Origin: an uncultured Desulfobulbaceae bacterium
GTDB lineage: Bacteria > Desulfobacterota > Desulfobulbia > Desulfobulbales > CALZHT01
Reading direction: 5' to 3'
Length of the DNA: 64,000 nucleotides
NCBI GenBank assembly: GCA_945787445.1
Contig: CALZHT010000008.1
Coordinates: forward strand, 1 to 64,000
Shown: positions 3,201 through 31,140 of the stretch, one piece after another
Layout of the letters: the number at the start of each line of letters is the position of its first letter
Position numbering within the stretch: the stretch's first letter is position 1
Translations under genes and position numbers: made by a program
Notes under the pieces: generated by a model
The model's input: the letters and a program-made list of their open reading frames with translations, nothing else
What the model was told of the DNA's origin: nothing
The model's database searches: none

Positions 3201-3929
3201 ATGGAAAAGGCACGGACAGTCTTAATCACAGGAGCGAGTAGGGGAATCGGCGCAGCAATTGCGGGTAGATTGGCGAGGGCCGGGTATGACATCCTGCTGA
3301 ATTATCATTCCAGTCATGAAGCCGCAGCTCTTGTTCAAAAAGAAATAGAGTCTTGTGGTCGAAACTGTACACTGCTTCCTTTTGATGTTGGTGATGAAGC
3401 GCAAGTGGAAAAAACCCTGTCCACAATCATCGAGCATAATGTCCCCTATGCATTGGTTCACAATGCAGGCGTGACGAGAGATACATTGGCGGCCATGATG
3501 AGCAGGTCTGACTGGGATACCGTTATCAATGTGCATCTCACCGCATTTTTTCTGTTGACCCGCTTGATGGTCAAGGTCATGCTCCCCAAAAGAGAAGGGA
3601 GGATAATTGCCGTTGCTTCCGTTTCAGGGGAAACGGGGCAGGCGGGCCAGATGAATTATTCCGCTGCCAAAGCAGGGCTTATCGGCGCCTGTAAGGCGCT
3701 TGCCAGAGAGACGGCCAAGCGCAATATTCTCGTTAATGTCGTTTCCCCTGGTCTTATTGAAACCGAAATGATTGCAGGGCTCCCCATAGAGAAACTTCTT
3801 CCTGCCATCCCCCTGGGCCGAATCGGCAGGAGTGAAGAAGTCGCCGGCATTGTTAATTTTCTCCTCAGCGATGAGGCAACCTATATCACTGGCCAGGTAA
3901 TTGGCGTTAACGGTGGTCTTTATATGTAA
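3201..3929 (+). CDS. fabG: 3-oxoacyl-ACP reductase (FabG/ApeQ-like SDR)
   Basis: TGASRGIGAAIA, YSAAKAG, NGGLYM C-terminus; first gene of the plus-strand biosynthetic operon. Confidence 0.85.
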   Translation: MEKARTVLITGASRGIGAAIAGRLARAGYDILLNYHSSHEAAALVQKEIESCGRNCTLLPFDVGDEAQVEKTLSTIIEHNVPYALVHNAGVTRDTLAAMMSRSDWDTVINVHLTAFFLLTRLMVKVMLPKREGRIIAVASVSGETGQAGQMNYSAAKAGLIGACKALARETAKRNILVNVVSPGLIETEMIAGLPIEKLLPAIPLGRIGRSEEVAGIVNFLLSDEATYITGQVIGVNGGLYM

Positions 3930-3968: not shown

Positions 3969-4409
3969 ATGGATAAAGGAATTCTGCCGGAATCAGCTGA
4001 TAAATTTGTGCCCCACCGCCCTCCCATGTTGCTTATAGAACAGTTTGTCGAGCGGAGCAAGGAAGATACGGCCGGGATTGCCACGGCAACCGCCCCTTCG
4101 GAAGGACTTTTCATGGGGCCGGACTCTGAAATCATCCCTGAGTATTTTATCGAACTTATTGCGCAGACCACAGCCGCTATAAATGGATATGATGCCCTTG
4201 TTGAAGGTAATCCCCCTGCAAAGGGCTTCCTGGTTGGGATTGACAAGTTTGTCTGGAAGGGCCAGGCAGTACCTGGAGAGAAACTCAGGATCACAGCAAA
4301 AAAAATCTTTGAATTTGGTGCGGTGGCTATCATTGATGGTTTTGTGTATGGGGAAACCGGCAACGAGATAGTAAGCGGCAAGATAAAAGTATGGGAGGAA
4401 AGTGATTGA
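3969..4409 (+). CDS. Hotdog-fold 3-hydroxyacyl-ACP dehydratase (ApeP-like)
   Basis: FVPHRPPMLLIEQF motif; position after FabG as in APE clusters. Confidence 0.7.
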   Translation: MDKGILPESADKFVPHRPPMLLIEQFVERSKEDTAGIATATAPSEGLFMGPDSEIIPEYFIELIAQTTAAINGYDALVEGNPPAKGFLVGIDKFVWKGQAVPGEKLRITAKKIFEFGAVAIIDGFVYGETGNEIVSGKIKVWEESD

Positions 4410-4607: not shown

Positions 4608-5264
4608 ATGTGGTGTAGTGTGCAAGCCGGCCGTCAGCTTATGGCCTTATTTTTCTTCATAATTTTCATTTTCTTCCCTTTTGCTGACAGCTGCAGGGCA
4701 GATGAACTTGCGGCATTTTTAAAAAAGGTGGAAGAAAAGGCCGTGACGGTTACCTCTTTTTCTTGTGCTTTTAAACAGGAGCGGCATCTGTCCATATTTT
4801 CCAAACCCGTCTTGTTTTATGGAAACCTCACCATTGTAAGGCCGGATCGTTTACGTTGGGAATTCAACAAGCCGTTGGGCTCGGTATTGGTCCTTGACGG
4901 CTCGCAAGGATTGCGTTGCTCCGGCAACAGCAAGCCTCAGAAATTTGATATTACCGGCAATCCGGTGATGCGGATTGTGTTCAGACAATTATGGGCCTGG
5001 ATGAACGGAGAATATTCCCGTATGCGGGAAGCCTACGATATATCCCTGCTATCAGATAAAACCGGCATTGTCCTGCATCCATTGGAGAAGGCCATGGCAT
5101 CCGTTGTTTCCACCATTATTATCCTTTTTGATTCCACCACTCTTCAGCCCGTCAATGTGGAAATCCACGAATCTTCAGGTGATAAAACCCTGCTGCAATT
5201 CAGCGACTATATTCTTAATCCCTCTGTGAACAGAGCTCTGTTTACCCAGTGCAGTAGCCAGTGA
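4608..5264 (+). CDS. Outer-membrane lipoprotein carrier LolA-like protein (ApeL-like)
   Basis: FSCAFKQERHLSIFSKPVLFYGNLTIVRPDRLRWEF... LolA signature; precedes the MMPL exporter. Confidence 0.75.
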   Translation: MWCSVQAGRQLMALFFFIIFIFFPFADSCRADELAAFLKKVEEKAVTVTSFSCAFKQERHLSIFSKPVLFYGNLTIVRPDRLRWEFNKPLGSVLVLDGSQGLRCSGNSKPQKFDITGNPVMRIVFRQLWAWMNGEYSRMREAYDISLLSDKTGIVLHPLEKAMASVVSTIIILFDSTTLQPVNVEIHESSGDKTLLQFSDYILNPSVNRALFTQCSSQ

Positions 5265-7663
5265 ATACTAAAGCCGTTCTCATTCGGTGGAGTCTCGTGC
5301 TCATTGTCACAATGGTTGGCGCTTTTTTAGCCAGGGACGTTGATTTACGTGAGGATGCTTTGGATCTTCTGCCTTCGGGAGCAGTGGAGCAAGATTTTAC
5401 ATTGCTTGCACGCCTTGGCCTTGTCAACAGGATTTTTATAAGCATTGATAAGGCTGCCATGGGAGAGAAACAGAAGCAAAAACTCCCAGACAAGGAATTG
5501 CTTTCCAGTGCAGAATCAGTGGGCAAGGCCTTTTCCGCAAGTCCATTTTTTAAGCAAGTATTCTACCGTCTGCCTGAGGAGACGAATCGTTTTTTATACG
5601 ACCAGCTTTGGCATCATTTGCCCGCTTTTCTGGGGCCCGCAGATCTACGCGAAATTGAAGGGCTTCTTGCTGGCGATGGATTAAACAAAGCGCTTATAGA
5701 TAACTTCGTTTTGCTAAACAGTGTTCCTGGGATCGCGCTCAAAGAACAGATCAGGCGGGATCCATTAGGTTTTTTTAACCTGGTGATGAAGCGACTTGAG
5801 AATCTCCGCGGCGAAATTGCCGTTGAGGTGCGCGACGGCTATTTTTTGAGCAAAAACGGCAATAGTTGCCTGTTGTGGGCGGAAAGTACTGTTTCATTGA
5901 CTGACTCCCAAACGGCTGAGAAGGTGCAGCAGGAAATAGACCGGATACTCGATGAGAATCTTACTCCTGGTATTGAGGCGCGAATTATCGGTAGTCTTCC
6001 CCATACCCTTGCCAATGCCCGAACTGTCAGGAGTGACCTGCAAAGATTGTTGCCCCTGGCCCTGGCTGGGTTGGTGATTCTTTTCCTTGTGGCCTTCCGG
6101 GACCTGCGTGCCCTGCTGGTGGTGATGGTGCCATTTTTGGCGGCCCCTGCGGCGTTAGGGGTAGTCATGCTTTTTCATGATACAGTGAGTGCTATTGCCC
6201 TGGGCTTTGGTATTGTCCTGCTGGGTATTTCTGTTGATTTTGCCATCCATCTTTTCATGGGACTTTCAAGGGGAGAGGATTCCCGTGATAATCTGCTCAG
6301 AAAACTACAACGACCGATCTTACTGGCCACTGCCTCTACTCTTAGTGTTTTTATGGTCTTGCTTTTTTCCCAAGTACCTTCCCACCGGCAGATGGCCCTT
6401 CTTGCCATTGCCGGCATTTCCCTTGCATCAGCTTTTGCCTGGTTTCTCATCCCTACTTTGGTAAAAAACAAAAACAGATCCAACAATTCAGCACATATCC
6501 TCTTATCTCGGCTCAGCTTTTCATCGCCATTGAGGAATTTTGTAGCGATACCCTTGTGGCTCCTGTTGGTTGTTAGCGGTCTGTTTGCCTGGCCGCAGCT
6601 TCGATACAACGGCGACCTGAAAACTTTCGATGTTTCTGACCCGCGCATTGCATCCCAGGAGAAAAAATTTTATGAAAGCTGGGGCCGGAAAGGGGAGCAG
6701 TCTTTTATTTTTTCAACAGGTAAGAGTTTATCCGAGGCCTTGGAAAAAAATGATTATATCAACGAAGCATTACAGGCGAGGATTTCCGGATACCAAACCA
6801 TAGCCTTTCTCCTTCCAAGCCCTGTCACTCAGCTCCGGAATATTGCAAACTGGAAGGCTTTTTGGAAAATGCGTCATACGTCATTTATGCATGATTTTCA
6901 AAACGGGGCAATCGAGCTGGGCTTCAGTAGCATTGCCTTCAAACCTTTCTTTGACTGGCTGGCATTCGAGCCTGAACCGATATCACCGGAGAATTTTGTA
7001 AACTCCCCTCTTGCTCCTATTTTTGCTACACTACTCCGCGTGCCTGAACATGATGTTACGGGGGAACCTACAAAAGATGAAGATCTTTATCTGGTGGCAA
7101 CTGTTGTCCCTGAAAGCCAGGTTTCAGAAGAGATTTTATCCGCCATCGAAGAGAAGATCCCCGGCGTGAAAGTACTGTCCAATGCTTCATGGCGAGAGCG
7201 GGTTGAGAACCTGCTGCGCAAAGATATTATCAGGTTATCCGGTGCCGCGGCATTGCTGGTTTTTTGCATGATTATCTGTTTTTTCAGGAGCGGCCGGGTG
7301 GTGCTCGCGGTTTTGGCCCCGGTGCTCTCGGCCCTTTCGGCAATGGCTGTTTTTGATCTGCTGACCACCCGGGACTTAAATCTCATGCATGTGCTGATGG
7401 GAATCATGGTGATTGGTCTAAGCGTTGATTATGGGATATTCATGGTGTGTGCCATGCAGGAAGGAATATCAAAAACCACGGTTCTTGCGGTGAGCACCTG
7501 TGCCGCCAGTACCCTGGTTGGATTTGGCGTCCTGGCTTTTGCCGTTCATCCAGTTCTGCAGTCTTTGGGAGTTACGGTACTTGCCGGAATAGGAGCGGCA
7601 TGGCCCACAGCATTATTGGTCACTCCCGTATTGTTGGGGAATCCGGAAAGGGCCGGGGAATGA
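5261..7663 (+). CDS. MMPL/RND-family exporter (ApeM-like)
   Basis: 800 aa, two blocks of TM helices, LGISVDFAIHLFMG and IGLSVDYGIFMV motifs; overlaps neighbouring genes. Confidence 0.8.
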   Translation: MNTKAVLIRWSLVLIVTMVGAFLARDVDLREDALDLLPSGAVEQDFTLLARLGLVNRIFISIDKAAMGEKQKQKLPDKELLSSAESVGKAFSASPFFKQVFYRLPEETNRFLYDQLWHHLPAFLGPADLREIEGLLAGDGLNKALIDNFVLLNSVPGIALKEQIRRDPLGFFNLVMKRLENLRGEIAVEVRDGYFLSKNGNSCLLWAESTVSLTDSQTAEKVQQEIDRILDENLTPGIEARIIGSLPHTLANARTVRSDLQRLLPLALAGLVILFLVAFRDLRALLVVMVPFLAAPAALGVVMLFHDTVSAIALGFGIVLLGISVDFAIHLFMGLSRGEDSRDNLLRKLQRPILLATASTLSVFMVLLFSQVPSHRQMALLAIAGISLASAFAWFLIPTLVKNKNRSNNSAHILLSRLSFSSPLRNFVAIPLWLLLVVSGLFAWPQLRYNGDLKTFDVSDPRIASQEKKFYESWGRKGEQSFIFSTGKSLSEALEKNDYINEALQARISGYQTIAFLLPSPVTQLRNIANWKAFWKMRHTSFMHDFQNGAIELGFSSIAFKPFFDWLAFEPEPISPENFVNSPLAPIFATLLRVPEHDVTGEPTKDEDLYLVATVVPESQVSEEILSAIEEKIPGVKVLSNASWRERVENLLRKDIIRLSGAAALLVFCMIICFFRSGRVVLAVLAPVLSALSAMAVFDLLTTRDLNLMHVLMGIMVIGLSVDYGIFMVCAMQEGISKTTVLAVSTCAASTLVGFGVLAFAVHPVLQSLGVTVLAGIGAAWPTALLVTPVLLGNPERAGE

Positions 7664-8223: not shown

Positions 8224-8622
8224 ATGAAAAAAAAACGAGCTGAGCTTTGCCTGTTTGATGATTGGTTTGATAGGGTTCTGTTTGATTTTTCCATCCACCA
8301 AAGGGTTCCGAAAAAAGTAGAGGCAGCGATAATTTTTCCTCAAGACTTTCCAGCATTTTCCGGTCATTTCCCAGAGGAGTCAGTGCTGCCCGCTATTGTA
8401 CAGTTACTTTTTATTCGTAAGCTTACAGAAAAGGCCTTAGGCAAGCAGTTTGTTCCATCTGTTCTCCACCGGGTTAAGTTCAGCGGTGTCATCCGGCCGG
8501 ATGAGAAAATATCTCTGTTGGCAAAAGTAACCGAAGAGACCGATCAGGTGGTGGTTGATTTTTCCATCCGTCGGAAAGGCAAGAACGTTGCTACAGGAAC
8601 CGTTATCTATACAACCCGGTAA
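8224..8622 (+). CDS. Hotdog-fold dehydratase (ApeI-like)
   Basis: FPAFSGHFPEESVLPAIVQL is the FabA/Z-like ApeI motif. Confidence 0.7.
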   Translation: MKKKRAELCLFDDWFDRVLFDFSIHQRVPKKVEAAIIFPQDFPAFSGHFPEESVLPAIVQLLFIRKLTEKALGKQFVPSVLHRVKFSGVIRPDEKISLLAKVTEETDQVVVDFSIRRKGKNVATGTVIYTTR

Positions 8623-8627
8623 ATGTT

Positions 8628-9089
8628 ATGGGATTTCAACAGCAATATTTTGATTTGGATCCGGATGGACCGCCGCCTTTATCGGTTATAACCAAGCGAA
8701 GGGTCCGTTTTGAAGAAATAGATATGCTCGGCATTGTCTGGCATGGCCGTTATGCGAGCTACATGGAAGATGGGCGAGTGGCCTTTGGTGATCGTTATGG
8801 CCTGAGTTACAAGAATTTTAAAGAGGCCGCCATTGCGGCGCCCATTGTGCAAATGCATATAGATTATCGCGCGCCGCTTTATTTTGATGATACTTTTCAG
8901 ATCAAAGTAAACCTCCACTGGTGTAGTTCCTTGCGGCTTAACTTTGAATACGTGATTACCAAAGAGGAGCAGTTAATAGCTAAAGGGTACACGGTTCAAC
9001 TTCTGACCGAAGTTTCAGGAGACGTGCTTCTTATGCCACCGGATATGGTGCGCGAATTCAGGACACGCTGGCAGGAAGGATCCATCTGA
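8628..9089 (+). CDS. Acyl-CoA/ACP thioesterase, 4HBT type (ApeK-like)
   Basis: VRFEEIDMLGIVWHGRYASYMEDGRVAFGDRYG typical 4HBT motif. Confidence 0.8.
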   Translation: MGFQQQYFDLDPDGPPPLSVITKRRVRFEEIDMLGIVWHGRYASYMEDGRVAFGDRYGLSYKNFKEAAIAAPIVQMHIDYRAPLYFDDTFQIKVNLHWCSSLRLNFEYVITKEEQLIAKGYTVQLLTEVSGDVLLMPPDMVREFRTRWQEGSI

Positions 9090-10195
9090 TGGAACGGATT
9101 GTTATCGTGGCGGCAAGGGCGAATACTGCTCTGGGCAATTTGGATGCTACCTGGGATGGTATTTTCGCCGGCCGATCAGCGCTTGCCCCATCCAATCTGA
9201 GCGGTCCACCCGGAGAATATCCCGTTGGGATGATCACAGGTCTTGCTGACGACTGGGGAAGCAAGGACCGGATTGAATCTCTGCTTTGCATGCTTTTAGA
9301 TGATATTCCTCCAATACCTCAGAAAACAGCCCTTGTGGTGGCGACGACCAAGGGCGCGGTCGATGAATTATTGAGTAAACCGGCAGGACCGTGGCCCATG
9401 CAACCATGGGACCTCGGCAACAGTATCGCTGAAAAAACCGGGCTGCGCGGCCCGGTCAGCACTGTGAGCGGTGCCTGCGCTTCAGGCACCTTGGCCCTGA
9501 TTACCGCAGCGCAGCGTCTGGTGTCCGGCGAAGTTCATACAGCCCTTGTCCTGGGCGTAGATGTCTTGAGCAGATTTGTGTTGTCAGGATTTTCAAAACT
9601 GCAGGCTGTCTCACCATCACCCTGCCGTCCATTTGACAAAGACAGGAAAGGTCTTTCCCTTGGTGAAGGTGCAGGCTTACTGCTGCTGAGCACAGAGCAG
9701 GAGGCCAGGAAACAGGGATGGCCACTGCTCGCTGAGGTGAGTGGCTGGGGAGCTGCCTGCGATGCAAGTCATATCACAGCCCCCAGCAGAGAGGCATCGG
9801 GCTTGCGGGCCGCTATTATGGCGGCAACTTCCAATGGCAAAATCAAGGTAGGCGGTATCAACGCACATGGAACCGGCACCCGTTTCAATGATGCCATGGA
9901 ACTGTTTGCCTTTAGAACCCTCTGGCAGAATCAACCGGTGTTTCATTCCGTAAAAGGAGCAATTGGCCATTGTTTGGGGGCAGCGGGAGTCATAGAGGCT
10001 GCTCTTGCCATAAAGAGCCTGGCGACGGGTACAATTCCTCCAACTGTTGGCCTGGAAAACCCTGATCCAGAGGCTTTCAACATTTCAGGTAATGAAATCC
10101 TTCCTTTGTCAGATCCAACAGTCTTGAGCTGTAATTCCGGTTTCGGTGGTATTAATGCTGCCGTTGTTCTCAGCAGGTCGGAAGCTTCTGGTTAA
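9089..10195 (+). CDS. Beta-ketoacyl-ACP synthase (FabF/ApeO-like)
   Basis: VSGACASGTLAL (Cys), NAHGTGT (His), GHCLGAAG (His). Confidence 0.85.
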   Translation: MERIVIVAARANTALGNLDATWDGIFAGRSALAPSNLSGPPGEYPVGMITGLADDWGSKDRIESLLCMLLDDIPPIPQKTALVVATTKGAVDELLSKPAGPWPMQPWDLGNSIAEKTGLRGPVSTVSGACASGTLALITAAQRLVSGEVHTALVLGVDVLSRFVLSGFSKLQAVSPSPCRPFDKDRKGLSLGEGAGLLLLSTEQEARKQGWPLLAEVSGWGAACDASHITAPSREASGLRAAIMAATSNGKIKVGGINAHGTGTRFNDAMELFAFRTLWQNQPVFHSVKGAIGHCLGAAGVIEAALAIKSLATGTIPPTVGLENPDPEAFNISGNEILPLSDPTVLSCNSGFGGINAAVVLSRSEASG

Positions 10196-10498: not shown

Positions 10499-11950
10499 AT
10501 GAGTTCCCTGAACCATAAGAACATACTGCTGGTCCATCCCCTTGGTTATTGGGAAGGTGCGGCAGATAAGGACATTTCCCGTATGGCCAACATCATGCCG
10601 CCCCTGGGTATGGCAAGCATTTCTGCTTATCTGGACCGGCAAGGGATGCACTCGACGATTATTGACTGTTATGCCCGGCCTGATTCCGATCGTGTTATCC
10701 GTGAATATTTGCAGGAGAGAAAGCCGGGCTATATAGGCTTCAGCTGCACCACCTCGAGTTTTCTTGATGGAATTCGCATTACTGCATTGGCAAAGAGCGT
10801 CCTGCCCGGCATAAAGGCGGTTTTTGGCGGGGTGCATGTTTCCGCCTTAAAAAACAAGGTGCTTGAAGACTATCCGGTTGTCGACTATGTCGTAGTGGGA
10901 GAAGGTGAGCAAACCTTGACAGAGCTTATGCAAGCAGAAGATGAATCACCTGATGCGGTTGCGGGTTTAATTTATCAAGACACCCAAGGTGAGGTTCGCT
11001 TTACCGGTTACCGGAAAAAATCCATAGAGCTTGATATCCTGCCGTTTCCTGCCTATGAAAAGTTGACAGGGTATCCCGACACCTATAAGCTGCCGATTTT
11101 TAATTATCCACGGACACCAAATTCCAGTTGTATTTCCAGCCGTGGCTGCCCATATGCCTGCAGCTATTGTGACCGGTCCGTATTTCGCCGCAGCTTTCGC
11201 TATAACTCTGCGGAGTATCTCTATGAGCATCTCAGCTACCTTAAGGATCGTTTCGGTATTCGCCATATCAATTTTTATGATGACCAGTTTACCTTTAATC
11301 GCAAAAGGGTTGAGAAATTCACCGACATGATGATTGACCGCCCCTTGGGCATGACCTTCAATTGCGCAGTAAGGGCCGAGCATATTGATTTTGATTTGTT
11401 GAGGAGGATGAAGGACGCCGGTTGCTGGATGATCAGCCTGGGAATTGAAAGCGGCGATGAGAATCTCCTGGCCCAGCATCGTCAGAATGCGAACCTGACC
11501 ATGTTGGCTGAAAAAATCCGTTTGATCAAAAAGGCGTCAATCCGCACCAAAGGACTCTTAATGATGGGGTTACCGGGTGAATCAGAGAACAGTGTCAGAA
11601 AGAGTATGGATTATGTTTTTTCCCTGCCCATTGATGATTTTAATCTGGCCAAGTTTACTCCTTTTCCCGGATCGCCGATTTATGAAAATATCAATACGCT
11701 TGGGACATTTGAAGAGGACTGGGAGAAAATGGATTGTATGCAGTTTCTCTTTGTTCCCCACGGTATGACAAAAGAACGGTTGGAAGAGCTGTTCATTGCG
11801 TTCTATAAGACCCATTATATGAGGCCGAGGGTTATGTTGGGTTATGTTGCCATGCTCTGGCGATCACCGGACAGCTGGAAACGTTTTGTAACCGACCTCG
11901 GTTCCTTTCTTAAGTTTGCCAGGAGCAACAAGCGGCTTGGAGAAAATTAA
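10499..11950 (+). CDS. B12-binding-domain radical SAM protein
   Basis: Cobalamin-like N-terminal domain (LLVHPLGYWEG...GFSCTTSSFLDG) and SSRGCPYACSYCDRS (CxxxCxxC). Confidence 0.85.
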   Translation: MSSLNHKNILLVHPLGYWEGAADKDISRMANIMPPLGMASISAYLDRQGMHSTIIDCYARPDSDRVIREYLQERKPGYIGFSCTTSSFLDGIRITALAKSVLPGIKAVFGGVHVSALKNKVLEDYPVVDYVVVGEGEQTLTELMQAEDESPDAVAGLIYQDTQGEVRFTGYRKKSIELDILPFPAYEKLTGYPDTYKLPIFNYPRTPNSSCISSRGCPYACSYCDRSVFRRSFRYNSAEYLYEHLSYLKDRFGIRHINFYDDQFTFNRKRVEKFTDMMIDRPLGMTFNCAVRAEHIDFDLLRRMKDAGCWMISLGIESGDENLLAQHRQNANLTMLAEKIRLIKKASIRTKGLLMMGLPGESENSVRKSMDYVFSLPIDDFNLAKFTPFPGSPIYENINTLGTFEEDWEKMDCMQFLFVPHGMTKERLEELFIAFYKTHYMRPRVMLGYVAMLWRSPDSWKRFVTDLGSFLKFARSNKRLGEN

Positions 11951-11995
11951 GCCGTCACCATAGAAAGGATAAGGATTTTTTTAAGAGAGGCTTCT

Positions 11996-12409
11996 ATGCG
12001 GAAACAGGATGTGCCACAGGATATCGGAATTGCGGAGGGATTGAAGGAGGTCTGTTATGCAGTGGATGATACCGGGCGCTATGTTCTGGTGCCGAGTGCC
12101 GGTTGGGAGCCCAAGAATGTCACCAATCATCAGGCCTGGCAGCTTATCGAGGAGCAGCAGCGGGATGTCGCCACCCAGGTTTTAGAGGGACGCCAGAGCC
12201 CCATAGCATATTATATGACTAAGAATTTGATGGATGTCGGCCTGCTCGCTCAGTATGTGGGATTCTTCCGTTGGCGTGTTCGGCGGCACCTTAAGCCTAG
12301 AGTGTTCAGAAAACTAGCACCTGCGGTGCTTGAAAAGTATGCAAAGGTGTTCGGCATAACCGTTGAGCAGCTTACCGATCAACGTCAAATAGGCAACAAC
12401 GTTCCATAG
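11996..12409 (+). CDS. Uncharacterised 137-aa protein directly upstream of the BtrH-like gene
   Basis: Intact ORF within a same-strand gene cluster; no family recognised. Confidence 0.55.
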   Translation: MRKQDVPQDIGIAEGLKEVCYAVDDTGRYVLVPSAGWEPKNVTNHQAWQLIEEQQRDVATQVLEGRQSPIAYYMTKNLMDVGLLAQYVGFFRWRVRRHLKPRVFRKLAPAVLEKYAKVFGITVEQLTDQRQIGNNVP

Positions 12410-12422
12410 AGTGACAATATAG

Positions 12423-13421
12423 ATGGAGATACCCTTTACGCACCGGCAGTCCGCTCATTGCGAAACCGGCACCACATCAAATCTGTTGAACCATTATGGT
12501 GTTCCTGTATCCGAAGCCATGGTGTTCGGTATCGGGGCGGGATTGTTTTTTGGGTATCTGCCCTTCATAAAGTTGAACAATCTGCCTCTCACTACTTTTC
12601 GGAGCGCTACAGGGGCCATATTCAAACGCACCACCAGAGAGCTGGCTATTAAAGTTGAAACACAGAGATTCCGTGATCCGGAAAAAGCCATGGTCGCGCT
12701 GGACAGTAAACTTGATCAGGGTATCCCGGTCGGAATTCAGACCGGGGCCTACTGGCTTCCTTACTTTCCTCCTGCCTTCAGGTTTCATTTCAATATGCAC
12801 AATTCCATCGTCATAGCGAAGAGAGATGACGAGTATCTGATAAGTGACCCTGTTTTCCCTGAACCGGTGCTCTGCTCCGCTCATCACCTGAAACTTGCCC
12901 GTTTTGCAAAAGGAACCCTGGCCCCCAAAGGGAAAATGTATGTTTTTCGAGAAGTCCCCCAGCATGTTGATCTTATGCAGCCTATCAAAAAAGGGATAAA
13001 GGTTCTTACCAACGCCATGTTGAAAAATCCTGTTCCTCTCCTTGGCGTGAGAGGTATCCGGTATCTGGCAGGACAGCTTGAGAAGTGGCCGAGGAAGTTC
13101 GGAAAAGACCAGGCCCTGTTGTATCTCGGTCAGGTGGTCAGAATGCAGGAGGAAATCGGCACAGGCGGTGCTGGCTTCCGTTTCATTTTTGCCGCCTTTC
13201 TCCAGGAAGCGGCATCAACCTTGGAGGATAATCGTTTCCAGGCCTACTCGGAAAGAATGACGCAGATCGGCGACCACTGGCGAGAGTTTGCAGTTGTAGC
13301 GGCACGAAATTGCAAGGGAAGGGCAGGTGAGAATGATTCATATGCTGTCATGGCCCGGATTTTAATTGAATGCGCGGACCAGGAAGAACTGTTGTATCAG
13401 GATTTGGCCAATTCAATCTGA
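12423..13421 (+). CDS. BtrH-N-terminal/DUF4872-like protein (possible ACP-dependent acyltransferase)
   Basis: HRQSAHCETGTTSNLLNHYGVPVSEAMVFGIGAGLFFGYL resembles the butirosin BtrH N-terminal domain. Confidence 0.75.
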   Translation: MEIPFTHRQSAHCETGTTSNLLNHYGVPVSEAMVFGIGAGLFFGYLPFIKLNNLPLTTFRSATGAIFKRTTRELAIKVETQRFRDPEKAMVALDSKLDQGIPVGIQTGAYWLPYFPPAFRFHFNMHNSIVIAKRDDEYLISDPVFPEPVLCSAHHLKLARFAKGTLAPKGKMYVFREVPQHVDLMQPIKKGIKVLTNAMLKNPVPLLGVRGIRYLAGQLEKWPRKFGKDQALLYLGQVVRMQEEIGTGGAGFRFIFAAFLQEAASTLEDNRFQAYSERMTQIGDHWREFAVVAARNCKGRAGENDSYAVMARILIECADQEELLYQDLANSI

Positions 13422-13458: not shown

Positions 13459-14241
13459 ATGCCCCTTAGTGTTGATAATGAATGCTCAGATGCCGAAGCC
13501 CCCATCCTGGCCGCGCACCAGTTGGTGAAAGTATATACAGGTGCTGACCGGCCTGCGGTTGACGGTCTTGATATCACAATCCGGCCCGGCGAGATTTTCG
13601 GTCTGCTCGGGCCTAACGGCGCCGGAAAAACCACGACCATATCCATAATGAGCACGTTGCTGTTACCCACATCCGGCAGTGTGTCAATCTGCAATACAGA
13701 TGGAATTAAACACCCCAAGAAGGTGAGGCGGATGATCAGCCTCGTGCCCCAGGACATTGCCCTTTATCCGGAAATGACGGCCCGGGAGAATCTGCGGTAT
13801 TTCGGGCGCCTGTTTGGCTTGCAAGGTAAGAAGCTTGCAGAGAGAATCGAGAATTGCCTCGAACAAGTGGGACTTGAGAATAAGGGGGATAAACGGGTAT
13901 TTTCCTGCTCCGGCGGCATGAAGCGCAGGATAAATCTTGCGGTGGGCATCCTCAACAAACCGATAATTCTTTTTTTAGATGAACCAACGGTGGGTATTGA
14001 CGCCCAATCCAGGAACATGATTTTGGAGAAACTTCTTCTCCTGAAAGATACCGGCACAACAATAGTTTACACTACGCATTATATGGAGGAGGCGGAAAAG
14101 CTCTGCACCAGGATTATTATCTTGGATGACGGGAAAAACATTGCCGAGGGCAGACCCCGAGAGCTTGTCGAGGATGCACCAGGATGCAACAATCTGCAGG
14201 ACTTTTTCTTCTCTCTTACCGGCAGGGATCTCAGGGATTAG
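13459..14241 (+). CDS. ABC transporter ATP-binding protein (ABC-2 type)
   Basis: GLLGPNGAGKTTT Walker A, FSCSGGMKRRINLA signature, ILFLDEPTVGID Walker B. Confidence 0.9.
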   Translation: MPLSVDNECSDAEAPILAAHQLVKVYTGADRPAVDGLDITIRPGEIFGLLGPNGAGKTTTISIMSTLLLPTSGSVSICNTDGIKHPKKVRRMISLVPQDIALYPEMTARENLRYFGRLFGLQGKKLAERIENCLEQVGLENKGDKRVFSCSGGMKRRINLAVGILNKPIILFLDEPTVGIDAQSRNMILEKLLLLKDTGTTIVYTTHYMEEAEKLCTRIIILDDGKNIAEGRPRELVEDAPGCNNLQDFFFSLTGRDLRD

Positions 14242-14283: not shown

Positions 14284-14427
14284 AATACATTCTCGGATTT
14301 TGTAATGATATTCATAAAGTGCCTAAAGTTCGAAGTGCCTAAAGTGCCTAAAGTTATGGTACTTTTCTGGTTAGATAAATCCTTTAACTTTAGGCACTTC
14401 GAACTTTAGCTCACTTTAGGCACTTTC
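14284..14427. repeat. Hairpin repeat, family 2 copy (degenerate flanks)
   Basis: aagtgcctaaagttcgaagtgcctaaagt ... actttaggcacttcgaactttagctcactttaggcactt inverted arms; related to 18222 and 30943. Confidence 0.8.
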
Positions 14428-14435
14428 TCTTCCCT

Positions 14436-15773
14436 ATGTCAAGATTGCGCGCAACAATTATCAAGGAAATTACCCTTCTCTGGCGGGACCGGGCCGGTAT
14501 GGTGATCCTTTTTGTCATGCCCGCAGTCCTGGTCCTTGTTATTACCCTTGTACAGGAAAACGTTTTAAAGGTGATGGGGGAGGCAAACACCCGGGTGTTA
14601 TTCGTGGATATGGATGGAAGCCGTTTGGGGAAGGCCATTGCCGAGCAGCTCCAGGAATTGGGAACAGTAGAGTTGGTCAGAGAGGTCAACGGCAACAAAA
14701 TTAATCAGCCAGCAGCCTTTGAATTAATCAGACAGGGTAATTTCCGCTTCGGGATAGTAATTCCCAAAGGCATAGGCGACGCCCTTAAAAAAAGAGCAAA
14801 ACAGGTGGTGGCAAGATCACTTGATGACAAAGCCCCTTCAAGGGAGGACGACGCCAAACTCCCGGAAGTGATGGTATATTTTGATCCTGCTGTGCGCGGC
14901 GGTTTCAGATCGGCAGTGTTGAGCACCCTCAACAGGGTAATCTTACGTGTTGAGATTGATGAAAAAATGGCATTCTTCGCAGAGTTGCTTCCGGCGCACC
15001 TTGAAAAAAACATCGAGGAAAGTATGGGTTTTTCCTACCCGGGCGGAGTTGCCATGGATTTCCCGCCAATAAACATTGAGTGGAGCAAGCAACCCCTGCT
15101 CGGTGTCAAAGAGGAGTTTGCTTTCCGTAGTACGTATGCGAAAATTCCAACATCTGTACAACAAAATGTCCCGGCCTGGGCTTTGTTCGGCATGTTTTTC
15201 GTGGTAGTGCCGATGGCCGGCGCTCTGATCAGGGAAAGAGAGACCGGCACACTTGCCAGGTTGCTGACCATGCCGGTATCAGGTATGTGCCTGCTTTTCG
15301 GAAAAGTGGCGGCCTATGTAGGAGTATGCCTTGTCCAGTTCACCATAATAGTTTTAATCGGCAAATATCTGCTTCCTTTTCTGGGCACGCCTTCGTTGGA
15401 CATGGGATCAGATCCTGTTGCCATATCCGTCATCGTTCTTAGCTCCATACTGGCGGCTACAGGGTATGGCATCATGCTCGGCTCCATTTCCCGCACCTAT
15501 GAACAGGCGGCCATGTTCGGCGCCATTTCTGTGGTGATTGCTGCGGCTCTTGGTGGTATTATGGTGCCGGTTTACGCCATGCCACAGTTGATGCAGAAGA
15601 TCAGCATTGTATCACCGCTAGGCTGGGGCCTTGACGCCTTCCACGACGTCTTTGTCCGGGGTGGGACTGTATCGGATGTCCTGCCTGAATCCTCGGCGTT
15701 GCTTGTTTTCTTTGCAGCAACCATGCTCATTGCTTGGATTTACCTGTTCAGGAGGATTCGAACCGGGTCATAA
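14436..15773 (+). CDS. ABC-2 type transporter permease
   Basis: N-terminal TM, large extracytoplasmic domain, C-terminal TM bundle; follows the ATPase. Confidence 0.85.
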   Translation: MSRLRATIIKEITLLWRDRAGMVILFVMPAVLVLVITLVQENVLKVMGEANTRVLFVDMDGSRLGKAIAEQLQELGTVELVREVNGNKINQPAAFELIRQGNFRFGIVIPKGIGDALKKRAKQVVARSLDDKAPSREDDAKLPEVMVYFDPAVRGGFRSAVLSTLNRVILRVEIDEKMAFFAELLPAHLEKNIEESMGFSYPGGVAMDFPPINIEWSKQPLLGVKEEFAFRSTYAKIPTSVQQNVPAWALFGMFFVVVPMAGALIRERETGTLARLLTMPVSGMCLLFGKVAAYVGVCLVQFTIIVLIGKYLLPFLGTPSLDMGSDPVAISVIVLSSILAATGYGIMLGSISRTYEQAAMFGAISVVIAAALGGIMVPVYAMPQLMQKISIVSPLGWGLDAFHDVFVRGGTVSDVLPESSALLVFFAATMLIAWIYLFRRIRTGS

Positions 15774-15807: not shown

Positions 15808-16077
15808 ATGGAGTGCTTAATGGATTCTTTAGAAAAAGAACTTCTCAATATGGTTATTGAGGTTTGTAAGATAACCGACCCGGTTCCCGCTGATTTTTCC
15901 CCGGATCAGACGTTGATCGGCCCGGAATCTCCCTTGGGCATTGATTCCCTTGATGCTGTCGAAATCGTTTTTACGGTCCAGAAGCGGTATGATGTCCGGA
16001 TCGATTCCGAAGAAACAAGCCGCCAGGTTCTGGCGTCGCTGAAAACCCTGGCGGATTTTGTCAGGAGCCATATGTAA
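15808..16077 (+). CDS. Acyl carrier protein
   Basis: GPESPLGIDSLDAVEIVF (DSL phosphopantetheine site). Confidence 0.85.
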   Translation: MECLMDSLEKELLNMVIEVCKITDPVPADFSPDQTLIGPESPLGIDSLDAVEIVFTVQKRYDVRIDSEETSRQVLASLKTLADFVRSHM

Positions 16078-18221: not shown

Positions 18222-18458
18222 CAATTTCAGATCTCCTGAACTCGAGGATTTTACGATGATACCAACGTTGATAATGCCCGGAAGAGTGCCTTAAGTTCGA
18301 AGTGCTTAAAGTTAATGTACTTATTTTATTAGATGTACCTTTAACTTTAAGCAATTCGAACTTTAGCGCACTTTAGGCACTTATGCCCGGTATCAATTTT
18401 TTCAAGGGTTCCTCTATCTCCTCAATAATAAGCCATTGGGTGAGGAATTCTGAATTTG
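18222..18458. repeat. Family 2 MITE-like element, full copy
   Basis: Imperfect terminal inverted repeats (caatttcagatctcctgaa / gaggaattctgaatttg) around a palindromic core; collinear with 30943-31140. Confidence 0.8.
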
Positions 18459-18558: not shown

Positions 18559-19707
18559 CTATACAGCGGTGAGCATCATGTAACCTATGGAAAATCGACC
18601 GCTTTCCGGGATGAAACAGAGGAGCTTGTCGCCTTTGTGAACATGGCCTGATTTGAAAAGTTCTTCAAGGATAATGTATATGGACGCAGCGCCGGTATTT
18701 CCCTTGAGGGCAAGATTCGAGGACCATTTTTCAAAAGGTATTTCAAAGCCGATGTCGCGCATATGCTCATAAAGCTCCATCTTGAAATAGTCGGAAGAGT
18801 AATGCGGCAGGAACCAGTCAATTTCATCGGAGCTGAGATTATATTTTTTGATCTGGTGAGGAAGGGTCCTTTCGATCGAAGTGGTGATGATTTCCTTATT
18901 GAGCAGTTTGGCATCCTGTTTGACGAGAAACGCCCTGTTGTCCAGTGCATCCTGCAGCGAAGAAAATTCGCGCCAGCCCTTTAAAATGCCGTTGTCCTGC
19001 TTTATTGCCCCGGCATACATGCAGGCATCAAATTGATTGGCATGGGACATGATTTCTATCCAGTCAATTCGCAAGGAGAGCCGTCCTTCCGGAGCCTTAC
19101 CGGTGAGAAAAGCGGCGCCGGCTCCGTCTGAGAGCATCCAGCGCAAGAAATCAGCCTCAAAGGCCAGCATGGGCTGTTGGTCCAGTTTTTCTGCCTTTTC
19201 CGGATTGATTGAACCGCAGAACTGGGAGCGCATGAACGTGGAGGAATTTTCCGATCCGGCCGCAACACCGTTCTTATGTAATCCTTGTGCCACATTCATA
19301 TAGGCATACTTCAGTGCCGTAATACCGGAGAGGCATATGCCGGCTGTGCTCACTATTTCGCAAGGTCCGCATCCTATTTCTCCATGTACCATGGAGGCAT
19401 GACCGGGCATGAACTGGTCCGCTGCCGAAGTTCCGCAGCATAAACATTTTATGTCATCTAGGGTAAAGCCATCGTATGGTTTGAGACGACGTATGGCCTC
19501 GGCCGCTAGCTGGGCATTGGTGTGGGTTATTTTGCCGGTCTTGGGATCAAGAGCGTAATAACGTTGGTCAATCTTGTTGTTTCTGAGGATGATCTTCCGG
19601 GTTCGCGAAGGAACCTGATTGACCATGCCCAGAATCTGTTCCATCTCCTCATTGCCGACGGGATCGTTAGGGAGAAAGTATGCAATATCTGTTATATAAA
19701 CATCCAT
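18559..19707 (-). CDS. KAS III-like (FabH-type) ketoacyl synthase
   Basis: STAGICLSGITALKYAY (Cys), WFLPHYSSDYF (His), LKGNTGAASIY (Asn). Confidence 0.8.
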   Translation of the reverse strand: MDVYITDIAYFLPNDPVGNEEMEQILGMVNQVPSRTRKIILRNNKIDQRYYALDPKTGKITHTNAQLAAEAIRRLKPYDGFTLDDIKCLCCGTSAADQFMPGHASMVHGEIGCGPCEIVSTAGICLSGITALKYAYMNVAQGLHKNGVAAGSENSSTFMRSQFCGSINPEKAEKLDQQPMLAFEADFLRWMLSDGAGAAFLTGKAPEGRLSLRIDWIEIMSHANQFDACMYAGAIKQDNGILKGWREFSSLQDALDNRAFLVKQDAKLLNKEIITTSIERTLPHQIKKYNLSSDEIDWFLPHYSSDYFKMELYEHMRDIGFEIPFEKWSSNLALKGNTGAASIYIILEELFKSGHVHKGDKLLCFIPESGRFSIGYMMLTAV

Positions 19708-19724: not shown

Positions 19725-21020
19725 TTACAGCTTCGCTCTGGAGTGCCCCTCTTTAAGCAGATTGGCGTATCTCTGGTAAAATACCTGTTCGTCCAGCTTA
19801 GTGGCGATCACCGCATTGGTAAGAGTATAGTAATCTAGATCGTGGATGACAATTCTTTCTTGCAAAGATTTGTATAATGCAGTGCCGGGCAAGGGAGTGA
19901 GCACGGTGGGCATGGGCAGGTCAATGGCGGTGTCCTGGATATATCGTGTGAGTTCGTCAAACTGAGGCTCATCATAGTCTGGTGAGATAATAAAGTCCCC
20001 TATAATGGTTATGCCGATGTCATGGAGAATTTTAATGGCTTCGGTGTTGACTGCCGCCTTGTTTTTTTTGTTCAATTTTTGAAGTTCTTCATCGGTGATC
20101 TCTTCAAAACCGATGATCACCGCCCTGAGTCCGGCCTCTTGCCATTGTTTCATAAGGTCCGGGTGACGCACCACGGTGTCGGACCTCACATCAGCAAGAT
20201 ATTGTTTTTGTATTCCAGCTTCCTTAATGGCCGTGCATAGTGCTCCGGCATGGTGCGGATCGCCAAAGGTGTTGGCATCGAGGAGGCGGATTACGGGAAT
20301 ATCTCCAAGGAGGTCAATATCCCGGAGTACTGAATCTGTTCTATGGGTGAGATAACGGCCGTTTGTCAAAGCGCCTATGCAGCAGAACGAACAGTCATAT
20401 GGACAGCCGAAAGCTGTTGCCACAAAGCCCATCCGGATATTGAGGGTTTTGAGGATATACGTGTCGCGGTATTGGGCAACCAGATCATATCTGGGCGGTT
20501 TTTCCTCCACCAGATCACCCATGGAGTATTTTCTGGGGATAAACCTGAGCGATTCACCCGGAGTTGTCTTGGCAACTCCTGGTAGATTGCTGCTGGCCAC
20601 CCCTTCCTCAAGGGAAGTGACAAGTTCCTTGAAGCTCGCTTTACCCAAGCCCACAACCACGAAATCAATATTTTTCCTGTTGAAAAATTCAGGATCGTTG
20701 CTGGCATGGATGCCGCCGACAACAACGGTAGCACCGCAGGTTTCCTTAATCTCGGCAGCAAGGGCTAAGACGGTGTTGGCTTCACAGGTAATACTGGTGA
20801 GGCCGGCAATGTCTGGCGTAAAGGTTCGGAGTATATCCTGAAGAGTGTCCGGTTCCGCTTTAAGATCAAGAATCCGTACATCATGGTCGGCAAGGTTTCC
20901 TGCCAGAACTTCCAGGCACAGGGGTTCACCCCGAAATATCTGTTTGATGGAGTCTATTCCGTAGCGTTCTTCAGGGATGCTGCGTCCGCAGTTAGGTGGG
21001 TTGACAAGCAGGATTTTCAT
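19725..21020 (-). CDS. B12-binding-domain radical SAM protein
   Basis: MKILLVNPPN start at 21020, cobalamin-binding-like domain, AFGCPYDCSFCCIG. Confidence 0.85.
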   Translation of the reverse strand: MKILLVNPPNCGRSIPEERYGIDSIKQIFRGEPLCLEVLAGNLADHDVRILDLKAEPDTLQDILRTFTPDIAGLTSITCEANTVLALAAEIKETCGATVVVGGIHASNDPEFFNRKNIDFVVVGLGKASFKELVTSLEEGVASSNLPGVAKTTPGESLRFIPRKYSMGDLVEEKPPRYDLVAQYRDTYILKTLNIRMGFVATAFGCPYDCSFCCIGALTNGRYLTHRTDSVLRDIDLLGDIPVIRLLDANTFGDPHHAGALCTAIKEAGIQKQYLADVRSDTVVRHPDLMKQWQEAGLRAVIIGFEEITDEELQKLNKKNKAAVNTEAIKILHDIGITIIGDFIISPDYDEPQFDELTRYIQDTAIDLPMPTVLTPLPGTALYKSLQERIVIHDLDYYTLTNAVIATKLDEQVFYQRYANLLKEGHSRAKL

Positions 21021-21116
21021 GGACTTGCGACTTGATAAATATGTCCTGGGCAATTGAAGCATCCCGCGGCCCCGCTGAAACGGGATTTCCGCTTCGCTAC
21101 AACAAGCCACGGGGTA

Positions 21117-21232: not shown

Positions 21233-22300
21233 TCAATCTGCCCCTGCGGATGCTGCCTTTTTATGCACTTCCAGCCAGCACATCGGATCTTCGGCCAGGT
21301 AATCCCCGGTTACCTGATAGGCATGCCCACGGCAACCATAACAGTAGTTTCCGAGATCACACATGGAGCAACGGCCCTTGATGGTAGTTCTGATATTCCG
21401 TAGGTCATGGATCACGGGGCTTTTTTTGATTATTTCCGTCAGAGGTTGTTCACGGATATTGCCGACAGCGACACTGACGCCCGGACACGGATTGACTTCG
21501 CCGTTTGCCGTTACCGTGCAGGAATATTCATGCCGGGCGCATTGTGAAGCAGCAAGCGGGGGATGGGGATACCACTGATTGCCATACTCTTCATAATCGA
21601 TATGGGCCAGGGTTTCGAAGAGTTGCCTGATTTCAGGGATGGAAACTTCCAGATCAGGGTTTTCTTTGGCGCGCCCCTGTAAGGTCATCATTTCTATGTA
21701 GGGAATGATGGACCGGTTCCGGGCCCAACGCCATATGTCCGGAAGTTCTTCATAGTTTTGCCGACAGATTATGGTCTCTATTCCAAGCGCCCTGTCCTTG
21801 GAGGGGTACCCCGCAGCCATCAGAGTTTCAATCCCCTGTTCAATGGCGGTAAAGGCGCCGCGGTGCCCGGCGAGAAGATCTTGGACCTCGGGCCTTCTGC
21901 TGTTCATCTTTACCACCACCGATACTTTCCGGTCAAAAAGGGCCTTTGCATTGTCAGGGGTGAGCAGCATACCGTTGGTGAAAAGGTCCACTTTGATGTT
22001 TTTTGCCAGTATATGATCAATAACCTTGAACAGATTTCCGTAAAGGAGAGGTTCACCGCCGCCCAAAACTATTATTTTCCTGGCGCCAAGGGCAGCAGCC
22101 TGGTCCACCACATCCAGAATTTCGTCAAGGGTAAGTTCATTGTCCTGCGGCGCACCCGAAGATGCATAGCAATAGAGGCAACGAAGATTACATGCCCGTG
22201 AAAGTTCTAATTCCAAGGACAACAAGCCGTTTCTGGCCCGTGTTTCTGCGATTTCTTCCGGAGAGAATTCAAGACCCCAATGTTCTCCAAAGCATTTCAT
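21233..22300 (-). CDS. SPASM-domain radical SAM protein
   Basis: LSRACNLRCLYCYAS (CxxxCxxC), C-terminal Cys-rich CSMCDLGNYCYGC. Confidence 0.85.
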   Translation of the reverse strand: MKCFGEHWGLEFSPEEIAETRARNGLLSLELELSRACNLRCLYCYASSGAPQDNELTLDEILDVVDQAAALGARKIIVLGGGEPLLYGNLFKVIDHILAKNIKVDLFTNGMLLTPDNAKALFDRKVSVVVKMNSRRPEVQDLLAGHRGAFTAIEQGIETLMAAGYPSKDRALGIETIICRQNYEELPDIWRWARNRSIIPYIEMMTLQGRAKENPDLEVSIPEIRQLFETLAHIDYEEYGNQWYPHPPLAASQCARHEYSCTVTANGEVNPCPGVSVAVGNIREQPLTEIIKKSPVIHDLRNIRTTIKGRCSMCDLGNYCYGCRGHAYQVTGDYLAEDPMCWLEVHKKAASAGAD

Positions 22301-23613
22301 AAGGCGTTCTCTTTGCGTAGATCAAAAAATTTTTTTAGTTTCCGCCCGCCTCCCTGTTCCATGTAGGCAAGCACCTCGTTTTTCGGCTTTATAATTATCT
22401 CAGGCAGCACCCGCAAATGGGCCTGCACAAATTCACCAACTGTGTTTTCATCGAGTGGCTCGTCGGTTCCAATAACCACGGATATCTCATCGGACAGTTC
22501 AAAGGATGATCGCGCTTCAATGTATGCGGCCTGCACCTGCGGCAGCTCGTGGAGTGCATGGAAGATCATCTCCGGGTAGAGTGTGGTGCCGCGGAACTTA
22601 AGGCGCTGCGCGAGCCTGCCCTCAATGGCTCCAAGCCTGGAAGTCTGCCATCCGCAGTCGCATGGCTCGCTATGGATTCTCGAAATATCACCGGTCCGGA
22701 AACGTACAAGAGGAAATCCTTCCACGCCAAGAGGTGTAACCACTACCTCGCCGTGGTGCCCTGGTGGCAGAGGATTGCCATTGTCATCAATAATTTCGGT
22801 GATCATCATTTCAGGATGGATATGGCCGCCACAGGATTCCTGGCACTCGCAGAAAGCGGTTTCGAGTTCGGTAGCACCATAGGAGGTAAAAATCTGTGCC
22901 CCCCATATATCTTCAAGAGCCATGCCCAGGGCAGTGAGCGTATGGTCAGCTTTTCGGACCGGTTCGCCGATGGTGACAATGGTTTTGATCCCAGCTTCTG
23001 CAGGTGAAATGTCGTGTTCCATACCCCAGTTTGCCAACTTAAGCAGAAAAGATGGAACCCCAACAAGACCGTTTGGTTTGAGTTGCCGGATAAGTTCCCA
23101 CTGACGGGCCGGCTGGCCTGGTCCGCTTCTGATGGCTGATGCGCCCAGCCGCACGAGACCGGAGTAATAGGCAAGCCCGGCAATAAAGCAACGATCCAAG
23201 GTAACGCAGAGGAGAAAACAGTCACCCGGTCGGGTGCCGGTTCCCCAATATCCCATGGTTTCATTAAAGGCGAGTCTCACTAGATCACGGCGGGAATAAG
23301 GAACAGGAATGCTGTTTCCAGTTGTTCCCGAAGTCAAGGCGATATCGGCAATGGATAAAGGGGAGACAGCCTGAAACGCGGCAGGATCTTTCTGGATATC
23401 GCTGCGGGTGGTGAGAGGTAGTGTCTTAATATCTTCCAGTGATGTAATGTCGTTCGGCAACAGGCCGATTGCCTTAAACATATCTTTATAAAAAGGCGCC
23501 CGCCCCGCTTGTTGCAGATGACTTCGCAGGAGTGCTACCTGTTGGTCATATATCTCAGCAGGATCAGCGTTACGCCATTGGATGGCTTTATCAAGCGAGT
23601 ATTTAAATTTCAT
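22297..23613 (-). CDS. Phenylacetate-CoA ligase-like AMP-forming ligase
   Basis: ALTSGTTGNSIPVPYSRRD, FTSYGATELETAFCEC, RFRTGDISRI; overlaps the SPASM gene start. Confidence 0.85.
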   Translation of the reverse strand: MKFKYSLDKAIQWRNADPAEIYDQQVALLRSHLQQAGRAPFYKDMFKAIGLLPNDITSLEDIKTLPLTTRSDIQKDPAAFQAVSPLSIADIALTSGTTGNSIPVPYSRRDLVRLAFNETMGYWGTGTRPGDCFLLCVTLDRCFIAGLAYYSGLVRLGASAIRSGPGQPARQWELIRQLKPNGLVGVPSFLLKLANWGMEHDISPAEAGIKTIVTIGEPVRKADHTLTALGMALEDIWGAQIFTSYGATELETAFCECQESCGGHIHPEMMITEIIDDNGNPLPPGHHGEVVVTPLGVEGFPLVRFRTGDISRIHSEPCDCGWQTSRLGAIEGRLAQRLKFRGTTLYPEMIFHALHELPQVQAAYIEARSSFELSDEISVVIGTDEPLDENTVGEFVQAHLRVLPEIIIKPKNEVLAYMEQGGGRKLKKFFDLRKENAL

Positions 23614-23625
23614 ATGTGGATGTAC

Positions 23626-24426
23626 TCACCTGGTTGAGTGAATTGGAGAATAACCAGGTTCAATCTGGGCAGTTGGAGAGGCCGATTCATCCACCCCATA
23701 CCCGCATTTTTGTAGTTCGGCTGCAATAGCATTTTTAACCAGAATTTTAAGTTTTCTTGTCTGCTCAGCACATTCATCGTGACTTTCCGGCATAATTGGC
23801 GGCAAAATGATCATTTTAATGGAGGCAGGCGTGAGTAATCTTTTGCCGGGCGGTAAAAGTTCAAACGTCCCTATGATGCAGACCGGTACGATGGGAAGGC
23901 TTGTATGGCTGGCGAGCTGGAATGCTCCATTTTTAAACCTTCGCAGTTTGCCGTCACGGGACCTGTGGCCTTCCGGCCAGACAATGAGGGAGCATCCTCT
24001 CTCCAGAAGCATGCGGCCTTTTTCCTCAACTTCGTCCCAACCCTCGGTTGCATCAATATACTGTGCGAGGTGCATTACCCATTTGTAAAAGGGTATCCGA
24101 AACGGCCAGGATGTAATAAAAGCCATTTCATAAGGCAGCAATCCGAACAAGTAGGGATCGACCGAGGAAAAATGATTTGTGGCAAAGATTACAGGCGTTT
24201 TGATTCCGCCTGAGCGATCCTCAACCACAATAGTGGCCATAAAGGGAATCAGCCTAACCAATACCCATCCGAAGACGCGGACACTTTTTCGGATTATTTC
24301 GTCGGTGGGGTGCCGTAAAAATACACCATTGATGAGCAGGATCATGGGAAGGATCAGTACAAAGCTCACGATGTTTACCAAGGCAAACATTGGCCAGATA
24401 TAGAGATTGAGGAAGAGTTTTTTCAT
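23626..24426 (-). CDS. 1-acyl-sn-glycerol-3-phosphate acyltransferase-like (PlsC)
   Basis: ATNHFSSVDPY and VWPEGHRSRDG motifs. Confidence 0.85.
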   Translation of the reverse strand: MKKLFLNLYIWPMFALVNIVSFVLILPMILLINGVFLRHPTDEIIRKSVRVFGWVLVRLIPFMATIVVEDRSGGIKTPVIFATNHFSSVDPYLFGLLPYEMAFITSWPFRIPFYKWVMHLAQYIDATEGWDEVEEKGRMLLERGCSLIVWPEGHRSRDGKLRRFKNGAFQLASHTSLPIVPVCIIGTFELLPPGKRLLTPASIKMIILPPIMPESHDECAEQTRKLKILVKNAIAAELQKCGYGVDESASPTAQIEPGYSPIHSTR

Positions 24427-24438
24427 ATTTCCGCTTGT

Positions 24439-24699
24439 TCAGTTAGCATGCTGTTCACCAATACTCACAATGAGCCTTATGAGATCATCCACGGTTTTCA
24501 CAGCCCGGATCTTTTCTTCATCATTCATTTTCATGCCAAAAGCCTTTTCAAGCGCAACAACCATGTCCACCGCGTCCAGGCTGTCGAGGCCAAGGTCATC
24601 ATAAAGGGTTGCCTCGGGCTGGAGAAGCTCTTGATCCAACTCAAATTCATCCACGAGGACTTCGATAACCTTTTGGCGAATCGTTTCCTCATATGTCAT
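24439..24699 (-). CDS. Acyl carrier protein
   Basis: LGLDSLDAVDMVVALEKAF. Confidence 0.9.
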   Translation of the reverse strand: MTYEETIRQKVIEVLVDEFELDQELLQPEATLYDDLGLDSLDAVDMVVALEKAFGMKMNDEEKIRAVKTVDDLIRLIVSIGEQHAN

Positions 24700-30942: not shown

Positions 30943-31140
30943 CAATATCAGATTTCCTGAATTCGAGGATTTTATGATGATATCAGCATTGATAATGCCC
31001 ATAAGAGTGCCTAAAGTTAATGTACTTATTTTATCAGAGATTCCTTTAACTTTAGGCACTTAACTCGGTATCAAACGATTTCCTATAGTATCCCTCTATC
31101 TCCTCAATATTACGTCATGGGGTCAGGAGTTCTGAATTTA
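30943..31140. repeat. Family 2 MITE-like element, full copy
   Basis: caatatcagatttcctgaattcgaggatttt...gtcaggagttctgaattta; collinear with 18222-18458. Confidence 0.8.

Follow-up and report, generated by a model that had tools for sequence, protein, structure and literature searches.

Flexirubins and arcuflavin are polyene esters of dialkylresorcinols (DARs) (PMC3992019, PMC3949708), and the locus described here raises the question of which enzyme joins the two halves of such pigments. For this step, the authors of the Chitinophaga pinensis study proposed the ligase-like FlxW (PMC3992019). No other published proposal, and no experimental identification of the enzyme that joins the halves of flexirubins, was found in the literature. 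The window, i.e., the 64,000-nucleotide stretch of DNA from an uncultured Desulfobulbaceae bacterium that was analyzed, contains a precise and easily testable candidate, the acyltransferase DarH. Based on profile matches of the window's ORFs, DarH is encoded within a polyene and DAR locus that extends from ~3.2 to 28.7 kb (Table 1). The locus encodes a ketoreductase, dehydratases, a thioesterase, ketosynthases, a LolA-like carrier, and MMPL and ABC exporters, together with two acyl carrier proteins (ACPs), a FlxY-like ligase, a PlsC-type acyltransferase, a DarB/StlD ketosynthase and three radical SAM enzymes.

Table 1. Features of the polyene and dialkylresorcinol locus (profile scores in bits).
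Feature	Coordinates	Strand	Matches and remarks
Ketoreductase (FabG/FlxB-like)	3201..3929	+	NF053542 285.2 vs cut-off 340; NF004200 FabG 285.6 vs 273
Dehydratase (FabZ/ApeP-like)	3969..4409	+	FabZ model 40 bits, below cut-off
LolA-like carrier	4608..5264	+	PF03548; LolA2_flexi 106.3 vs cut-off 125
MMPL/RND exporter	5261..7663	+	PF03176
Dehydratase-like (ApeI/FabA-like)	8224..8622	+	Match below cut-off
Thioesterase (YbgC/FadM type)	8628..9089	+	
Ketosynthase or chain-length-factor-like protein	9089..10195	+	
rSAM1, second B12-binding-domain radical SAM enzyme (BchE/HpnJ-like)	10499..11950	+	Directly 5′ of DarG
DarG family protein, 137 aa	11996..12409	+	NF053536 164.9 vs 70; AlphaFold pLDDT 86
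DarH, BtrH_N + DUF4872 acyltransferase, 332 aa	12423..13421	+	NF053550 460.8 vs 300; PF14399; PF16169
ABC transporter ATPase (DrrA/NodI-like)	13459..14241	+	PF00005
ABC-2 type permease	14436..15773	+	PF12698
Acyl carrier protein, GIDSLD motif	15808..16077	+	PF00550
DarB/StlD-family ketosynthase (dialkylresorcinol/1,3-cyclohexanedione former)	18559..19707	-	NF005293 566.2 vs 450
rSAM2, B12-binding-domain radical SAM enzyme, DarA position beside DarB	19725..21110	-	PF02310 + PF04055; CPYDCSFC cluster motif
Radical SAM/SPASM protein, between rSAM2 and FlxY-like ligase	21233-22300	-	
FlxY-like acyl-CoA ligase (starter loading)	22297..23613	-	NF053551 409.9 vs cut-off 520
PlsC-type acyltransferase	23626..24426	-	PF01553
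Second acyl carrier protein	24439..24699	-	NF003757 77.2 vs cut-off 65
Ketosynthase	24689..25945	-	
CrtD/CrtI-like FAD oxidoreductase, between two ketosynthases	25918-27423	-	
Ketosynthase	27413..28666	-	

The first-pass annotation had singled out the two ORFs now recognized as darG and darH, which do lie where it placed them, on the same strand and separated by a gap of 13 bases. It was also right about the HCETGTTSNLLNHYG motif (residues 12–26 of the 332-aa ORF) and the BtrH-N/DUF4872 character of the larger protein, with PF14399 (BtrH_N) matching at 161 bits (cut-off 29.7) and PF16169 (DUF4872) at 184 bits (cut-off 28). The nearby ABC exporter and ACP that it mentioned are accounted for by the ABC ATPase, ABC-2 permease and ACP encoded downstream. 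The larger ORF matches NF053550, “BtrH-related acyltransferase DarH”, over residues 5–328 and well above the equivalog cut-off. The 137-aa protein had been assigned to no known family, but one exists: NF053536, “DarG family dialkylresorcinol biosynthesis protein”, whose subfamily cut-off is passed. Since the cut-off of the flexirubin DarG equivalog is missed (NF053545; 159.4 bits versus 170), the protein is a member of the DarG family and not strictly a flexirubin equivalog. DarG and DarH are known families with unproven functions, and the pathway type is also known.

Cys13, His126 and Asp142 of DarH occur without exception in all 106 homologues compared, which come from Desulfobacterota, Bacteroidota and other groups. 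The same holds for Glu14, and the GTGG motif of DUF4872 is invariant in this set except for one gap. The spacing of the three residues is that of a papain-like triad, as predicted from sequence. An AlphaFold model of DarH (pLDDT 93.8) gave full-length Foldseek matches to the solved structures of AziU3, CtaG and CcbD/LmbD (E 5e-11 to 2e-6 for AziU3, CtaG and CcbD). Identity to these proteins is 9–16%, and similarity to solved relatives at the sequence level is very weak (E 0.05). CcbD and CtaG have the same catalytic Cys-His-acid arrangement as the predicted triad of DarH, and the CtaG structures include C11A, H128A and D144N variants, a spacing nearly that of C13/H126/D142. Given the invariant triad and the full-length match to CcbD, CtaG and AziU3, Cys-mediated acyl transfer by DarH is well supported by sequence and by the predicted fold. 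We know of no DarG partner for CcbD/LmbD, CtaG or AziU3, and, to our knowledge, the solved relatives of DarH acylate amines or make N-bonds, never phenol esters. CcbD, for example, uses a carrier-protein-dependent, Cys-thioester ping-pong mechanism and passes its acyl group to an amine (PMC12945683), so that it forms amides, unlike the ester proposed for DarH. BtrH of the butirosin pathway, likened to DarH by its BtrH_N domain (PF14399) rather than by sequence alignment, acylates an aminoglycoside (PMC10318531). No aminoglycoside genes were found in that portion of the window that was annotated. A generic BtrH-type protein was also considered and rejected, because full-length DarH scores fall into two separate groups: 366–495 bits for proteins accompanied by DarG versus 61–148 bits for those without it.

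Co-occurrence was examined in 297 genomes drawn evenly from the window's phylum. DarH exceeds its cut-off in 21 of these, and DarG does so in exactly the same 21. DarB likewise occurs in 21 genomes, 19 of which belong to the DarG-DarH set. Fisher p values are ~1e-32 for DarH with DarG and ~1e-25 with DarB, although the genomes are related and the draws are not independent. DarG is encoded directly upstream of DarH in 93 of 95 loci; L101 and L131 have no recognizable DarG. Among the 58 loci with enough flank for neighbor counts, an ABC ATPase (57 loci), an ABC-2 permease (55) and an ACP (52) lie within 9 kb of DarH, while the 16 BtrH/DUF4872 loci with scores below the cut-off have neither DarG nor DarB. 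The first-pass annotation had named lack of a conserved Cys and occurrence mostly outside ACP-containing loci as results that would count against its proposal, and neither was observed.

Exceptions to the pattern are few. Two genomes, G067 and G130, possess DarG-DarH with no detected DarB, so an acceptor other than DAR is possible there. Conversely, G119 has DarA-DarB and lacks DarG, DarH, a FlxY-like ligase and nearby polyene genes; the absence of DarG-DarH and of the ligase fits a producer of free DAR. The presence of DarB without DarH in G043 is best explained by a contig that ends inside DarB. Other loci show variations of a different kind. For instance, G229 carries three tandem darG-darH pairs (L049, 6924-11431), with every DarG followed by its own DarH. 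In G046, an in-frame TAG occurs in DarB where relatives have Trp (L037, ~11782-12885, - strand), which may reflect a pseudogene, a sequencing error or recoding.

The strict pairing with DarH suggests that DarG is a physical or regulatory partner of the acyltransferase. In its model, the C-terminal half gave weak Foldseek matches to SinR-like helix-turn-helix proteins (best E 0.017), and one homologue matched HTH_26 at 16.7 bits, below the cut-off of 22; the predicted structure thus points weakly to a Cro/C1-like helix-turn-helix fold. Neither a published function for DarG nor a published assay of the DarG-DarH pair was found in the literature.

Taken as a whole, DarH is probably a papain-fold Cys-His-Asp acyltransferase that forms the polyene-DAR ester in a flexirubin-like pathway. 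The completed (aryl-)polyenoyl chain would pass from its ACP to Cys13, where it would be held as a thioester. DAR, made by DarB and a partner enzyme, would then attack this thioester through a phenolic hydroxyl activated via His126/Asp142, and the resulting polyene-dialkylresorcinol ester would be exported by the ABC, MMPL and LolA-type carriers. DarG, encoded just 5′ of DarH, would serve as a near-obligate small partner. Both the DAR phenol as acceptor and polyenoyl-ACP as donor are inferred, as is the choice between the two ACPs.

The acceptor is the point at which this scheme departs from the first-pass annotation. Its idea of ACP-dependent acyl transfer through the Cys of the HCE motif holds up, given the invariant Cys and the fold, while its proposal that the acceptor is an amine or polar head group is not supported. 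An amine would agree with the characterized relatives BtrH (PMC10318531), CcbD (PMC12945683) and CtaG, and with the two genomes that have DarG-DarH and no detected DarB. However, 19 of the 21 genomes with DarG-DarH also have DarB for DAR synthesis, darG-darH adjoin darA-darB across Bacteroidota and other phyla, and the products known so far are esters of a DAR (PMC3992019, PMC3949708). Because flexirubins are such esters and DarH follows DAR synthesis, a DAR phenol is the more likely acceptor, and transfer to an amine or head group appears quite unlikely.

Alternatively, DarH could act earlier, as a transacylase or thioesterase that loads, offloads or proof-reads chains for DarB, with the ester made by a FlxW ligase or the PlsC-type acyltransferase. 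In C. pinensis (L108) and Azoarcus, darG-darH are grouped with darA-darB and lie apart from the polyene cluster, which would suit such a role, and FlxW has already been proposed for the ester. Nevertheless, an early role is unlikely: a heterologous host given only darA and darB of C. pinensis makes DAR (PMC3992019), which means that DAR formation does not require DarH, and G119 has DarA-DarB without the DarG-DarH pair. With respect to the other ester makers, xanthomonadin-type clusters, whose products lack DAR, also include a phospholipid/glycerol acyltransferase (PMC3949708), and no second AMP ligase was found among the scanned ORFs of the window. Least probable of all is a role for DarH as a C39-like peptidase associated with the ABC exporter, a reading implied by the name “BtrH-like peptidase” given to the Azoarcus counterpart. 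The fold is papain-like, most loci have an ABC transporter downstream, and a structure search did match a C39-like peptidase (2.9e-5), but only over the catalytic part. The full-length matches, helical C-terminal domain included, are to acyltransferases, and no peptide precursor gene was seen among the annotated neighbors.

The gene order around darG-darH has already been published for Azoarcus sp. BH72, where the arcuflavin dar cluster reads darB-darD-darE-darF ... darI-darC-darJ (PMC3949708). The common run consists of a small hypothetical protein (their darD), a BtrH-like protein (their darE), an ABC ATPase, an ABC permease, an ACP and a ketosynthase. Its first five genes were tabulated as darD, darE, darF, darI and darC, and, like the run in the window, it adjoins a DAR ketosynthase. 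In that publication, the names “darG/darH” denote a PHD/PilT-like pair that has no relation to DarG/DarH of NCBIfam. Flexirubin loci of C. pinensis and Flavobacterium show the order darA-darB-darG-darH (L108, L132), and their FlxB, FlxY, LolA and exporter genes have counterparts in the window. In the window, however, the FlxY, FlxB and LolA2 matches fall below the flexirubin equivalog cut-offs, and its DarB misses the cut-off of the narrower DarB model NF053539 (473.2 versus 550). In addition, no aromatic ammonia-lyase (PF00221) was found in the window's whole genome (G000), even though the locus encodes a FlxY-like starter ligase, so polyene synthesis probably does not start from TAL-derived coumarate. 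With the FlxB, LolA2 and FlxY cut-offs missed and the lyase lacking, the locus is related to those of flexirubins but is not a true flexirubin locus.

Azoarcus and the flexirubin loci also differ from the window in possessing DarA. In C. pinensis, darA is adjacent to darB (PMC3992019), whereas in the window DarA is absent from this position and rSAM2, a radical SAM enzyme with a CxxxCxxC motif and a B12-binding domain, occupies it. A DarA profile, built from loci belonging to the window's phylum, recovers the C. pinensis gene at the expected place (L108). These DarA proteins are not named by any Pfam or NCBIfam model, so their identity rests on this synteny. DarA itself weakly matches a flavodoxin-like protein, which fits a flavoprotein. 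With this profile, no strong DarA was found in the window's genome; a 233-aa relative encoded on a different contig scores just 87 bits.

Across the 297 genomes, strong DarA matches occur in eight, all DarB-bearing, plus a contig-end fragment in G046. The rSAM2 profile reaches at least 625 bits in 12 genomes, again all DarB-bearing, and the next best score is 309 bits. The two genome sets are disjoint and together cover all 21 DarB genomes. When the named genomes are included, 45 of 71 DarB loci have DarA, 23 have rSAM2, none has both and three have neither, two of these (L037, L124) being near contig ends. In the DarB tree, a single branch (support 100/97) separates the rSAM2 loci from all others. 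Repeated, independent swaps of DarA and rSAM2 were ruled out on this basis, and the 23 loci are to be read as one swap event that was kept, not as many events.

The simplest reading of these sequence patterns is that rSAM2 replaces the aromatase. As a tentative proposal, rSAM2 might oxidize the 1,3-cyclohexanedione made by DarB to DAR by radical chemistry, without flavin or O2, in a lineage made up mainly of Desulfobacterota-type bacteria, after which DarH would esterify the phenol. The main alternative is that rSAM2 methylates the ring without aromatizing it. A hidden aromatase is also still conceivable in four of the 12 rSAM2 genomes, since these encode a short, distant DarA relative elsewhere (56–87 bits). 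Oxygen avoidance would be an attractive reason for the use of rSAM2; as an explanation of the DarA/rSAM2 split, oxygen was not adopted because some probably anaerobic Bacteroidales MAGs carry DarA (for example, L119, L137 and L149). Among open-access papers, none was found that links such dialkylresorcinol/flexirubin biosynthesis with radical SAM enzymes. We know of no earlier description of a radical SAM substitution for DarA. The complementarity of the two points to an unrecognized resorcinol route and predicts a role for B12-binding radical SAM enzymes of a group that has not yet been studied.

Several other genes of the locus recur elsewhere. Counterparts of rSAM1, 45–70% identical, are found near DarH in several loci, and a gene 47% identical to the radical SAM/SPASM protein lies near DarB in L041. 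The CrtD/CrtI-like FAD oxidoreductase, possibly a polyene desaturase or isomerase, is found in L036 and L040 as well. Finally, the 13-mer AAGTGCCTAAAGT occurs in seven copies in the window versus zero expected. Five of these (14317-14425) are arranged as inverted arms in the stretch that separates the ABC ATPase gene from the permease gene and resemble a small palindromic repeat element within the operon, and further copies are located at 18370-18382 and 31049-31061.
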